Assembly (NCBI GenBank): GCA_022823055.1
Contig: JAJDXX010000040.1
Location: 1 to 32,686, forward strand
Length of the DNA stretch: 32,686 nucleotides
Reading direction: 5' to 3'
Origin: Candidatus Binatia bacterium
GTDB lineage: Bacteria; Desulfobacterota; Binatia; UBA9968; JAJDTQ01
How positions within the stretch are numbered: the stretch's first letter is position 1; every line of letters begins with the position of its first letter. Shown here in pieces: positions 83-26,391 of the stretch. Under the pieces are notes generated by a model that worked only from the letters and a program-made list of their open reading frames with translations, was not told the origin of the DNA and made no database searches. A program made the position numbers and the translations under genes.

Positions 83-165
83 TCCCTCACTCCTTCACAC
101 CAACTAAACCCCCTCACTCAGTGGGTTTTGCAAGTGGCTCCCTTGTTCAATGACCCCAATGAGTC

Positions 166-209
166 ATTCCCGCGAAAGCTTGCCCTCGACCCCGATCGGG
201 GGCGGGAAT
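166..209. repeat. REP-like palindromic repeat, long form
   Basis: ATTCCCGC (166-173) and GCGGGAAT (202-209) form perfect 8-bp terminal inverted repeats around a 28-base core containing the palindrome CCCCGATCGGGG. The same element, reverse-complemented, occurs at 32648-32686, cut by the window end. Confidence 0.75.
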
Positions 210-261
210 CCAGGCGGGGTGGGGCGGGGAAGCACTCCGATGGACCCCCCTCCACCCCTGG

Positions 262-281
262 ATTCCCGCTTCCGCGGGAAT
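262..281. repeat. REP-like palindromic repeat, short form
   Basis: ATTCCCGC, a 4-base spacer TTCC, and GCGGGAAT make a perfect 8-bp hairpin. It shares its arms with the repeats at 166-209, 22267-22283 and 32648-32686. Such ATTCCCGC/GCGGGAAT hairpins are widespread intergenic repeats in many bacteria. Confidence 0.75.
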
Positions 282-322
282 GACGATTCGGGGTGGAGGG
301 CGGGAATCCAAGCGGGGTGGGG

Positions 323-898
323 CTACCCCAGCGGTATGTCCACGCCGTTGAGGGTCAGCTCCGGCACCACGTCCACCGGGCGCCGGAGCGTGTTGGTGGT
401 GTAGCAGGAGCGTTCCAGCGCCTCGGTGAACTCGACGATGCGCTCCCGGCTGTCCGGGCTTTGCAACTCCAGCCGGTACACCAGCCGGGTGCACGCCGAC
501 GGCACGTCCGACAGCCCGAACTTTCCCTTCTGGTCGAACTCTCCGCGCACCGACATCTCGGCGCGCTCGATGCGGATGTCCATGAATGACGCCAACTGCG
601 TCACCTGGCTGAGCATTCAGAAGCCGATGGAGGCGACGAAGTACTGGAGCGGGGCCGCGCCCTTGCCGGTGCCGCCGCGCGATTCCGGCTCGTCGCACAG
701 GATGGTGTAGCCTTCCGATGTCCTGGCTTCCTTCAGGTGGTCGTTGACAAGGCGGATGCGCGCCTCGTGCACCGTGACCGCCTTGGACGGATCTTCCCGG
801 TAGACTTCCCGGCGGCGCTCGAACACCGCCTTGTGGTGGCTGTAGTCGATGGAGCAGCAGCCGGGATCGTCGAGCTCCCGTTCTTCGTCAATGGCCAT
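323..898 (-). CDS. OsmC/Ohr-family peroxiredoxin, predicted selenoprotein (TGA = Sec94)
   Basis: OsmC/Ohr proteins are cytoplasmic thiol peroxidases that reduce organic hydroperoxides with two cysteines. The frame is open from ATG at 898 (GGAGG ribosome site 5 bases upstream) to TAG at 323-325, interrupted once by TGA at 617-619. The 191-residue product has the family layout: GGTGKGAAPLQYFVASIGF, then the TGA codon, then a helix (MLSQVTQLASFMDI) and a beta-rich C-terminal half ending with SCYTTNTL. The TGA falls exactly where the first conserved Cys of OsmC stands (compare A-A-C-F in E. coli OsmC), and Cys165 fits the second, resolving Cys. A SECIS-like hairpin follows at 583-619. Length equals one complete OsmC-like protein. 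Alternatives are a disrupted gene or two ORFs joined by reinitiation at the ATG just after TGA. Both fit less well, because each half alone is an incomplete fold. Confidence 0.85.
583..619 (-). promoter_or_regulatory. Putative bacterial SECIS element in the OsmC-like gene
   Basis: Read on the minus strand, UGACGC (603-598) and GCGUCA (592-587) form a perfect 6-bp stem with loop AGUUG (597-593). The loop begins 20 nt after the UGA and has G as its second base, as expected for bacterial SECIS elements. The UGA itself plus one A (619-616) can pair with UUCA (586-583), closing the base of the structure as in the fdhF hairpin. The element lies inside the coding region, as required in bacteria. Confidence 0.75.
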
Positions 899-17631: not shown

Positions 17632-18711
17632 ATGACGGTTTTCGACGGCAGGCTCAGCCTCCAGTTCGTCACTCACTTGGCGAACCACTACACGGTCAAC
17701 CGTTTCGTGGAACTGGCCGCGCTGGCCCGTGAACGCGGATTCGAACGGATCTGGCTCAATGACAACGCACGCTACCGGAGCCAGGTGGTGGTCCTTTCCG
17801 CCATCGCCGCGCGCGTGCCCATCGGCGTCGGCACGGCCGTGCTGGTGCCTTACTTCCATCATCCCATCGAGGTGGTGGATTCGCTGGCGGCTCTGTCCGA
17901 ACTGAGCGAAGGGCGCGAAGTGGGCTTCGGGCTGGCGCGCGGTTCCACGACCCAGACGCCGCAGCACGTGACCATGCACAGGCCCCTGGCGCTGGTGCGC
18001 GAGCTGGCCGTGTTCGTGTCGCGAGCGCTGGCCGGGGAGCGCCTGGTCTATGGCGACTTCCCGGTCTTGTGCGAGCACTATCGCTTCAATCCGGCCGGCA
18101 GGTTCGAGCTGGCGTTCACGCCCAAGTCCCCCGTGGTCATCTATTCGGGCGGCAACGGCCCCCGGTCGCTGCGCATGGGCGGTCAGGTCATGGAGGGGCT
18201 CATCAGCTCGGGGACCTTCATCCCCATGCTGCGCGCGGGCCGGCTCGAGGGAATGCTCGAGCTGGCGGAGGCCGGCGCCCGGAGCGTGAACCCGAACAAG
18301 GCCCTGCGCAAGATGGTGGAGCTCAACGTGTCGGTATCGCGGGACCGGGACGCGGCCATGGAGTTCCCCAAGCGCCAGGTGGCCCATTCGATCCCTCAGT
18401 GGGAATCGCTCGGGTTCACGCCCGACGAGTACGCACGGCTCGGCGTGGAGCGGCAGCGTGTTCTCGATCTCAAGGACGCCTTCGCCCGGGGCGCCACCAT
18501 CGAGGAGGCCGCGGCCCTGGTCACCGAGCAGATGGTCCTGTCGTACTACGTCGCCGGCACCCCGGCCGAGGTGGCCGACCAGGTCGTGGAGCTGGCCGGC
18601 CAGGCCCAGGAGATGGGTTACGACGAGATCGCCTTCGCCAAGCTCGGCCCCGACTACGAGGAGGCCATCGAGATGCTGGCGGAGAGTGTCGTGCCGCGGC
18701 TCAACGGGTAG
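17632..18711 (+). CDS. LLM class flavin-dependent oxidoreductase, tandem copy 1
   Basis: This 359-residue luciferase-like monooxygenase or methylene-H4MPT-reductase-like TIM barrel has RGFERIWLNDNARYRS, VPIGVGTAVLVPYFHHP, LSEGREVGFGLARG and YSGGNGPRSLRMGG. It is collinear without gaps with the next gene (18754-19833, same length), with about four of five residues identical by eye. The start ATG 17632 gives MTVFDGRLSLQFV, matching MTAFDGKLSLQFV of the copy. The 42-base gap suggests co-transcription. Substrate and cofactor (FMN or F420) are unknown. The upstream region contains an unusually AT-rich patch at 17566-17600. Confidence 0.9.
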   Translation: MTVFDGRLSLQFVTHLANHYTVNRFVELAALARERGFERIWLNDNARYRSQVVVLSAIAARVPIGVGTAVLVPYFHHPIEVVDSLAALSELSEGREVGFGLARGSTTQTPQHVTMHRPLALVRELAVFVSRALAGERLVYGDFPVLCEHYRFNPAGRFELAFTPKSPVVIYSGGNGPRSLRMGGQVMEGLISSGTFIPMLRAGRLEGMLELAEAGARSVNPNKALRKMVELNVSVSRDRDAAMEFPKRQVAHSIPQWESLGFTPDEYARLGVERQRVLDLKDAFARGATIEEAAALVTEQMVLSYYVAGTPAEVADQVVELAGQAQEMGYDEIAFAKLGPDYEEAIEMLAESVVPRLNG

Positions 18712-18753: not shown

Positions 18754-19833
18754 ATGACGGCATTCGACGGAAAGCTCAGTCTCCAGTTCGTGATCCACTT
18801 GGCGAACCAGTACACGGTGAACCAACTGGTGGAGCTGGCAGAACTGGCGCACCGGCGCGGCTTCGAGCGCATCTGGGTCAACGACAACGCGCGCTACAGG
18901 AGCCAGGTGGTGGTGCTCTCGGCCATCGCGGCGCGCGTCCCCATCGGCATCGGCACCGCCATCCTGGTGCCGTATCTGCATCATCCCATCGAAGTGGTGG
19001 ACTCGCTCGCGGCGCTGTCCGAGTTGAGCGAGGGGCGCGAGGTAGGCTTCGGGCTCGCCCGTGGCGATCTGGCGCAGACGCCGCAGCACGTGGACGTGCA
19101 CAAGCCCATCACGCTGGTCCGGGAGCTGGCCGTGTTCGTGCGGCGCTCGCTCGCCGGGGAGAGCGTGAGTTACGGCGACTTCCCGGTGCTGTGCGAGTAC
19201 TATCACCTCAATCCCGCCGGCAGGTTCAAGCTGGCGTTCACGCCCAAGTCCCCGGTCGTGCTCTATTCGGGCGGCAACGGGCCCCGGTCGCTACGCATGG
19301 GCGGCCAGGTGATGGACGGGCTCATCAGTTCGGGGACCTTCATCCCCATGCTGCGCGCGGGCCGGCTCAAGGGGATGCACGAGATGATCGAGGCGGGCGC
19401 CCGCGGCGTGGATCCGGACAAGACCCTGCGCAAGATGGTGGAGCTCAACGTATCGGTCTCGCAAGACCGTGACGCCGCCATCGAGTTCCCCAAGCGCCAG
19501 GTGTCCCATTCGATCCTGCAGTGGGAGGCCCTCCAGTTCACGCCGGAGGAATACGCCCGGCTCGGCGTGGAGCGGCAGAAGGTGCTCGACCTGAAAGACG
19601 CCTTCGCCCGGGGCGCCACCGTCGAGGAAGCGGCGGAGATGGTGACCGAGAAGATGGTGCTCGACTACTACGTCGCCGGACGCCCGGAGGAGGTGGCCGA
19701 CCAGATCGTGGAGCTGGCCGGGCAGGCCCAGGAGCTGGGCTACGACGAGATCGCCTTCGCCAAGCTCGGCCCCGACTACGAGGAAGCCATCGAAATGCTG
19801 GCGGAGAACGTGATGCCGCGGTTGCGTGGGTAG
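18754..19833 (+). CDS. LLM class flavin-dependent oxidoreductase, tandem copy 2
   Basis: This is the second member of the tandem pair. The 359-residue product begins MTAFDGKLSLQFV after an AAAAGG-type ribosome site. It keeps all the landmarks of copy 1 (YSGGNGPRSLRMGG, KLGPDYEEAIEML at the C-terminus). Differences cluster in residues 104-118 (GDLAQTPQHVDVH against GSTTQTPQHVTMH) and in scattered surface helices, so the pair may differ in substrate. Divergence at many third positions suggests the duplication is not recent. It is convergent with the TPR gene at 19885. Confidence 0.9.
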   Translation: MTAFDGKLSLQFVIHLANQYTVNQLVELAELAHRRGFERIWVNDNARYRSQVVVLSAIAARVPIGIGTAILVPYLHHPIEVVDSLAALSELSEGREVGFGLARGDLAQTPQHVDVHKPITLVRELAVFVRRSLAGESVSYGDFPVLCEYYHLNPAGRFKLAFTPKSPVVLYSGGNGPRSLRMGGQVMDGLISSGTFIPMLRAGRLKGMHEMIEAGARGVDPDKTLRKMVELNVSVSQDRDAAIEFPKRQVSHSILQWEALQFTPEEYARLGVERQKVLDLKDAFARGATVEEAAEMVTEKMVLDYYVAGRPEEVADQIVELAGQAQELGYDEIAFAKLGPDYEEAIEMLAENVMPRLRG

Positions 19834-24098: not shown

Positions 24099-24167
24099 AG
24101 TGCTCGTGTGCGGGGTAGAGAAAGATACCTGTTGCGAGTCTAGGTGAATTCCGCCGAGGAGACAAAC

Positions 24168-25256
24168 ATGGCACGGAACGGACACCGCCTGGTAGTGGAC
24201 GCGGACGCCCACGTCCTGGAGACCGAGCGCACCTGGGACTACCTCGAAGGGTCCGACAGGAAGTTCAGGCCCGCGCTGTTCGGCTCGCCGGACATGGACA
24301 TGCAGTACTGGGTCATGGATGGCAAGATCCGCGGGGCGCGTTTCGCCACCTTGAGCGAGCAGCAGCTCGACGCCCTGTCCGAGAAGAAGGGGCGGCGGTT
24401 CACCACGCCCCAGGCCTCCCGCGAGGTGGACGACGTGGACCTGCGACTGGCGCACCTCGACGAACTGGGCGTGGACGTGCAGGTGATGCACAACACCATG
24501 TGGATCGAGCGGGTGACCGATCGGGCCGACGCCGAGGTCGCGCTGTGCCTGGCGTGGAACCGCTGGATGGCGGACGTGTGGAAGGCGGGGGAGGGCAGGC
24601 TCCGGTGGTCCTGCGTGATCCCGGCCATGGCGCTGGACGAAGCCGTGCAGCAGATGCGCTTCGCGCGCGAGCACGGCGCGGTGGCGGTGTGCATGCGCCC
24701 CTTCGAGGGCGACCGTCACCTGGTGGACCCTTACTTCTATCCCGTGTTCGAGGAGGCCTCGGCGCTGGACATGGCCATGGGCGTGCACATCGCCAACGCC
24801 AGCACCGGACTCATGGCGCACTTCCGCCCGCGCTACGACAAGACCGGCGGCTTCGCGCCGTTCCGCATCCCCACGGTGATCGCCTGCCTCTCGCTCATCA
24901 TGAGCGAGGTGCCGCGCGTCTTTCCCAAGCTGCGCTGGGGGTTCATCGAGACTTCGGCCCAGTGGATTCCGTGGATCGTCAACGAGGCCCGGCGGCGCTC
25001 GGGCACGGCCGACTATCCCGACAATCCCCTCAAGGAGTACAACGTCTACGTCACCGCCCAGTGCGACGACGACTTCCCGTACGTGCTGAAGTACGCGGGC
25101 GAGGACAACATCGTCATCGGCACCGACTACGGCCACACCGACACGTCCAGCGAGGTGGACGCCATCACGCGGTTCAAGGCGGAGCCGACGGTGGACGACG
25201 CGGCGCGCTGGAAGATCCTGAGCGACAACCCGAAGGCGCTCTACGGCATCGAATAG
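24168..25256 (+). CDS. Amidohydrolase-2 family protein, tandem copy 1
   Basis: This is a metal-dependent TIM-barrel hydrolase or decarboxylase of 362 residues in the amidohydrolase-2 family, which includes ACMSD and gamma-resorcylate decarboxylase. It begins VVDADAHVLETERTWDYL, with the metal-binding D-A-D-A-H. The LGVDVQVMHNTMW and VHIANAST regions provide further ligands, and the final Asp is in IVIGTDYGHTD. ATG 24168 is preceded by GAGGAGACAAAC. The next gene is a paralogue 49 bases downstream. A decarboxylase role would fit the UbiD neighbours, but hydrolytic function is equally possible. Confidence 0.88.
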   Translation: MARNGHRLVVDADAHVLETERTWDYLEGSDRKFRPALFGSPDMDMQYWVMDGKIRGARFATLSEQQLDALSEKKGRRFTTPQASREVDDVDLRLAHLDELGVDVQVMHNTMWIERVTDRADAEVALCLAWNRWMADVWKAGEGRLRWSCVIPAMALDEAVQQMRFAREHGAVAVCMRPFEGDRHLVDPYFYPVFEEASALDMAMGVHIANASTGLMAHFRPRYDKTGGFAPFRIPTVIACLSLIMSEVPRVFPKLRWGFIETSAQWIPWIVNEARRRSGTADYPDNPLKEYNVYVTAQCDDDFPYVLKYAGEDNIVIGTDYGHTDTSSEVDAITRFKAEPTVDDAARWKILSDNPKALYGIE

Positions 25257-25305: not shown

Positions 25306-26391
25306 ATGTCCGGCAACGGCAAGACCCTGGTGGTGGACTCGGACGCCCACGTGGTGGAGACCGAGCACACGTGGGACTACCTGGACGCGTCGGAGAAGAA
25401 GTTCCGGCCCCAGCTCTTCGCCCCCGAGGACGCCACCACGCAGTACTGGGTGCTGGACGGGAAGGTGCTGGGTTTCCGCTTCCGCACCCTGAGCGAACAG
25501 CAGCTCGACGAGGTCTCGGCTCAGGCCGGGCGGCAGATGCAGACGCCGAAGGAGGCGCGCGAGCTGCGCGACGTGCAACTCCGAGTCGACCATCTGGACA
25601 AGCTCGGCATCGACGTGCAGGTGCTTTACAACACGCTGTGGATCGAGCAGTTGACGGACCGCGCCGACGTCGAGACAGCCCTGTGCGCGAGCTGGAACCG
25701 CTGGATGGCGGACGTGTGGAAGCAGGGCGGCGGGCGGCTCCGGTGGGTGTGCGTGGTGCCGGCCATGACCATCAGCGAATCGCTGGAGCAGATCCGCTTC
25801 AGCAAGGAGAACGGCGCGGTGGGCGTGTGCCTGCGCCCCTTCGAGGGCGACCGGCACCTGGTGGACCCGTACTTCTACCCGATCTTCGACGAGGCCATGC
25901 GCCTCGACATGATGATGGGCATCCACATCGCCAACGCCAGCCCGCGCCTGGCGACGCAGTTCCGCCCGCGCTACGACAGCGGCGGCGGCCTGCCAGTGTT
26001 CCGCATCCCCACCGTGTCCACCTGTTTCACGCTGATGATGAGCGAGGTGCCCAGGGTCTTCCCCGACCTGCGCTGGGGCTTCATCGAGTCGTCGGCCCAG
26101 TGGGTGCCGTGGGTGGTGAACGAGACCATCCGCCGGTCGGGCACGGCGGAATACCCCGACAACCCCATGAAGGCCTTCAACGTCTACGTGTCGGCCCAGA
26201 CCGACGACGACTTCCCCTACGTGCTGAAGTACGCGGGCGACGACAACATCGTCATCGGCACCGACTACGGCCACACCGACGCCTCCAGCGAGGTGGACGC
26301 CTTCACTATCTTCAAGGGCAACGGCGCCATCAGCGAGGAGCAGAAGCGCAAGATCCTGAGCGACAACGCGCGGGCGCTGTATGCGCTGTAG
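25306..26391 (+). CDS. Amidohydrolase-2 family protein, tandem copy 2
   Basis: This is a paralogue of the preceding gene: 361 residues, collinear throughout, starting VVDSDAHVVETEHTWDYL (D-S-D-A-H for the first metal site) and ending with IVIGTDYGHTDASSEVD. ATG 25306 has AGGAGAAGG upstream. The identical HTWDYL..., WNRWMADVWK, RPFEGDRHLVDPYFYP and GTDYGHTD blocks show a shared fold and probably related substrates. Differences in the LFGSPDMDM/LFAPEDATT region suggest divergence in the active-site lid. It is probably co-transcribed with copy 1 and ends at the terminator at 26416. Confidence 0.88.
   Translation: MSGNGKTLVVDSDAHVVETEHTWDYLDASEKKFRPQLFAPEDATTQYWVLDGKVLGFRFRTLSEQQLDEVSAQAGRQMQTPKEARELRDVQLRVDHLDKLGIDVQVLYNTLWIEQLTDRADVETALCASWNRWMADVWKQGGGRLRWVCVVPAMTISESLEQIRFSKENGAVGVCLRPFEGDRHLVDPYFYPIFDEAMRLDMMMGIHIANASPRLATQFRPRYDSGGGLPVFRIPTVSTCFTLMMSEVPRVFPDLRWGFIESSAQWVPWVVNETIRRSGTAEYPDNPMKAFNVYVSAQTDDDFPYVLKYAGDDNIVIGTDYGHTDASSEVDAFTIFKGNGAISEEQKRKILSDNARALYAL

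Follow-up and report, generated by a model that had tools for sequence, protein, structure and literature searches.

A probable OsmC-family selenoprotein of Candidatus Binatia with a covarying SECIS hairpin after its in-frame UGA

OsmC-like proteins containing selenocysteine (Sec) have been known since 2005. The Sargasso Sea survey described three such sequences with the motif UxxT (PMC1088965) and the GOS survey five (PMC2398784)—in line with the first-pass annotation of the present locus, which mentioned reports of such proteins from metagenomes—and the family is listed in reviews of 2022 (PMC9312934) and 2026 (PMC13188914). A curated NCBI model exists as well (NF041052, ‘OsmC-related (seleno)protein’); no biochemistry on the family was found in the literature. 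The gene analyzed here, from a Candidatus Binatia bacterium, is an expected addition to this family. With the Sargasso Sea and GOS sequences (PMC1088965, PMC2398784) it shares OsmC membership, an active-site UGA and a candidate SECIS after the UGA, yet its motif is UMLS (UxxS) rather than the published UxxT. It scores above the cut-off of NF041052 over the whole domain, with the predicted Sec at the active-site column, but the model leaves uncovered its first 44 residues, an N-terminal extension with a CC motif. Compared with the Ohr/OsmC organic hydroperoxide reductases (1zb8, 4xx2, E. coli OsmC), fold and both redox positions are common, whereas the window protein would have Sec for the peroxidatic Cys and has Leu for the Ohr catalytic Glu. 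Newly described here are the UxxS form, the extension with Cys14-Cys15, the number of paralogues, the Sec/Cys sister clades and a Cys clade lacking the SECIS.

The gene lies near one end of the 32,686-nt stretch of DNA that we analyzed (the window), with the following features:

323-898, minus strand: OsmC-like, putative selenoprotein gene, from ATG at 898 to TAG at 323; 191 residues
767-898, minus strand: N-terminal extension, residues 1-44, outside the NF041052 model and containing Cys14-Cys15
617-619, minus strand: in-frame UGA, predicted Sec94, at the peroxidatic Cys position
587-603, minus strand: candidate SECIS apical hairpin, a 6-bp stem UGACGC/GCGUCA with loop AGUUG; positions 17-33 counted from the U of the UGA
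404-406, minus strand: codon of Cys165, a resolving-type Cys invariant in alignment A1

Reading the minus strand confirmed that one frame runs from ATG 898 to TAG 323 and that its sole internal stop is the TGA at codon 94 (619-617), as first proposed. A GGAGG ribosome-binding site stands 5’ of the ATG and is kept in relatives. Translation table 11 alone yields ORFs of 93 and 97 aa, the two false short ORFs that the first-pass annotation had expected of standard annotation. An uninterrupted frame says little for Sec on its own, since the GC-rich window holds 105 TGAs with at least 40 open codons on either side; in only one of these 105, the TGA of the osmC-like gene, do all six pairs of a hairpin with a GU loop also form where a SECIS would lie. 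What lifts this frame well above chance is homology, together with conservation, selection and covariation.

The read-through protein matched NF041052 with 135.1 bits (curated cut-off, 95) and Pfam OsmC with 53 bits. All 21 aligned relatives likewise matched NF041052, whose active-site column holds Sec or Cys. The closest structure to the predicted model (mean pLDDT 76.9) was the OsmC-like protein 3cje (Z 14.3, rmsd 2.6 over 125 residues). S-adenosylmethionine synthetases also surfaced in the structure search (Z about 9, rmsd mostly near 4) and were set aside, since OsmC entries ranked above them and the family is evident from sequence. Predicted Sec94 and Cys165 align with the peroxidatic and resolving Cys residues of 1zb8, 1lql and 3cje. 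The assignment of the TGA to the peroxidatic Cys site of OsmC thus stands, as does that of a resolving-type Cys165 downstream, which is present and invariant throughout the 21-sequence alignment.

Conservation of the UGA was assessed within and beyond the genus. The TGA is kept in 7/7 same-genus orthologues found—one same-genus genome (G001) holds only the other paralogue—and likewise in genes from two further genera, at 65% and 60% identity. It occupies one identical position in all 59 TGA-bearing matches, some of which are a gene retrieved twice, the tree having 56 distinct rows. Homologues without TGA carry TGC or TGT there in eleven cases and AGC in one remote case, and a scan of genome contigs returned three Cys-type relatives only, because its patterns had been back-translated with Cys. 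Translating TGA as U and aligning to OsmC/Ohr proteins, as had been proposed, therefore places mostly Cys opposite the UGA. Within the genus, dN/dS was 0.14 5’ of the UGA and 0.076 3’ of it; the latter value implies that the downstream part is translated and under constraint. The assembly is a draft of 253 contigs, which leaves room for a pseudogene, or for a sequencing error in which TGC or TGT was miscalled. The same TGA, however, stands in eight independent genomes within the genus and elsewhere in the order, and the sequence downstream has a dN/dS of 0.076; we consider a nonsense mutation or miscall highly improbable.

The same matches bear on whether the locus might instead encode two chains of a split OsmC, the ribosome stopping at the UGA and restarting at the next ATG. 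An ATG does follow the UGA directly, here and in 19/59 TGA-bearing matches, and coupled genes are known to show the arrangement TGA-ATG. In the other 40/59, including the 60-65% identical genes, the next codon is CTG, CTT, CTC or CTA, which excludes restart at this ATG as a general rule. Met occupies the same residue in intact Cys homologues too, and restart would account neither for the full Sec machinery nor for the covarying SECIS. A split gene is thus very unlikely, if marginally less so than a pseudogene or miscall.

Support for a SECIS comes from comparison of the TGA-bearing genes. Among 49 distinct TGA sequences, six stem pairs formed in 40 and five in 6; the loop carries G at position 24 in 47/49 and U at position 25 in 49/49. 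Across 290 offsets along the genes, the SECIS offset paired best (5.7 of 6; next best, 4.3). In 18 diverse sequences, 94% of cells were paired and three pairs had changed on both sides, giving a covariation score of 0.557 as compared to a shuffled mean of 0.185 (reached by 0/500 shuffles) and to 0.06-0.21 when the hairpin was slid; RNAalifold recovered the same helix unaided. Twelve homologues without TGA formed from 0 to 5 of the six pairs, with U at position 25 in only two. Codon variation within the genus was also lower in the SECIS stretch, with 3/13 codons variable there versus 56/83 further on (p = 0.004). Folding energy of the window sequence did not favor the hairpin: the minimum-energy fold of the single sequence was a different structure (z -0.82), and an Rfam search of the window at gathering scores returned no match. 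The folding check suggested at the outset did not bear out the hairpin on the single sequence; comparison across relatives did. The apical hairpin at 603-587 falls inside the interval 583-619 in which a SECIS-like hairpin had first been noted. Just after the UGA and with a conserved loop G, as in bacterial selenoproteins, a SECIS is strongly suggested by covariation, not by folding energy alone.

The genome also encodes the machinery that Sec insertion would need. SelB (387 bits), SelA (579 bits) and SelD (373 bits) are encoded side by side on contig C247, and a tRNA-Sec was found with 73 bits and anticodon tca, so that selA, selB, selC and selD, for which a check had been advised, occur together in the genome, as expected for a bacterial selenoprotein. 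The SelD gene (G000:C247:6066-6992, L012) has an in-frame TGA of its own and is probably a selenoprotein itself, as SelD is in many bacteria. Since the osmC-like frame is open through the UGA, a reassigned code or a suppressor inserting an ordinary amino acid might be invoked. This is as improbable as a pseudogene or miscall, given that TGA ends 11/23 likely genes in the window, that the homologous residue is Cys and that the genome has a tRNA-Sec with the matching anticodon. The two-gene restart, the pseudogene and the reassigned code were accordingly rejected on TGA conservation, post-TGA codons, dN/dS and the use of TGA as a stop.

At a probability of roughly 95%, the best explanation as a whole is an OsmC-family selenoprotein whose UGA is decoded by SelB and tRNA-Sec. 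The reading of the internal UGA as Sec is strongly supported at the level of sequence comparison, and the initial proposal that Sec replaces the catalytic Cys gains from three observations, namely Cys in nearly all homologues without TGA, SECIS covariation and a full Sec machinery. On this comparative basis, SelB and tRNA-Sec would decode the UGA at 619-617 as directed by the hairpin starting 14 nt 3’ of it. Sec94 is predicted to take the position of the OsmC/Ohr peroxidatic Cys on the central helix, where it would probably attack peroxide or another oxidized substrate. Cys165 may then resolve Sec94 as a selenylsulfide, and a cellular dithiol may reduce the latter. Attack by Sec94 and resolution by Cys165, drawn from what the OsmC/Ohr family does, are likely.

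A role in reducing organic hydroperoxides is less secure. The catalytic Glu of Ohr, which precedes the peroxidatic Cys by ten to eleven residues, belongs to the motif NPEQL and helps position the catalytic Arg. In the window protein, Leu84 aligns with this E in 1zb8, which makes a peroxidase role uncertain, and organic hydroperoxide reduction can only be inferred. A true selenoprotein that is not a hydroperoxide reductase, with Sec94 and Cys165 serving another thiol, persulfide or disulfide reaction, is therefore a serious contender, if somewhat short of an even chance. Besides Leu84, the weak sequence similarity to Ohr (E 0.06) and the extra N-terminal pair Cys14-Cys15, kept in ten sequences of the window’s clade, point in this direction; retention of both OsmC/Ohr redox positions and of the OsmC fold argues against it.

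Related genes outline how Sec and Cys forms are distributed. A second OsmC-like gene with an in-frame TGA lies in the same genome (G000:C183:8241-8678, L073); it is of the UxxT type (ULLT), and its SECIS stem differs in sequence (UUUCCC...GGGGAAA). One genome held up to nine OsmC-family matches, some of them fragments or TGA-free, and genomes of this order carry several Sec-OsmC paralogues each. Of 297 genomes sampled from the phylum, three had Sec forms above the cut-off. The tree requires three Sec/Cys changes, one clade of six Cys proteins standing beside closely related Sec proteins of the same type; as the root and long branches are unsure, the tree does not fix which way these changes ran. 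We tentatively raise the idea, to which we give about one chance in three, of a distinct OsmC selenoprotein subfamily, defined by the N-terminal CC extension and lack of the Ohr Glu, which would use Sec for something other than reducing organic hydroperoxides, in a lineage whose genomes carry several Sec-OsmC copies and in which a sister type has Cys and lacks the SECIS.

As to genomic context, a UbiD-type decarboxylase gene lies opposite the osmC-like gene in every same-genus relative that carries the latter. The neighbor is not visible in the two other genera, and a functional link is therefore weak. Downstream of the osmC-like gene, window positions 160-320 contain a repeated inverted motif of the form CGGGAATCC...GGATTCCCG, likely a dispersed palindromic repeat. 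Elsewhere in the window, two pairs of adjoining genes are apparent tandem duplications: the highly similar 17632-18711 and 18754-19833, luciferase-like oxidoreductases by reading, and the similar 24144-25256 and 25306-26391, amidohydrolases by reading.

For a family seen mostly in metagenome fragments, this locus would provide a well-supported addition for which the genome has the complete machinery and the SECIS covaries; gene callers ignorant of selenocysteine would split the gene into two false ORFs. Within the order, nature provides the same protein in a Sec and a Cys form, with and without the hairpin, for comparison.
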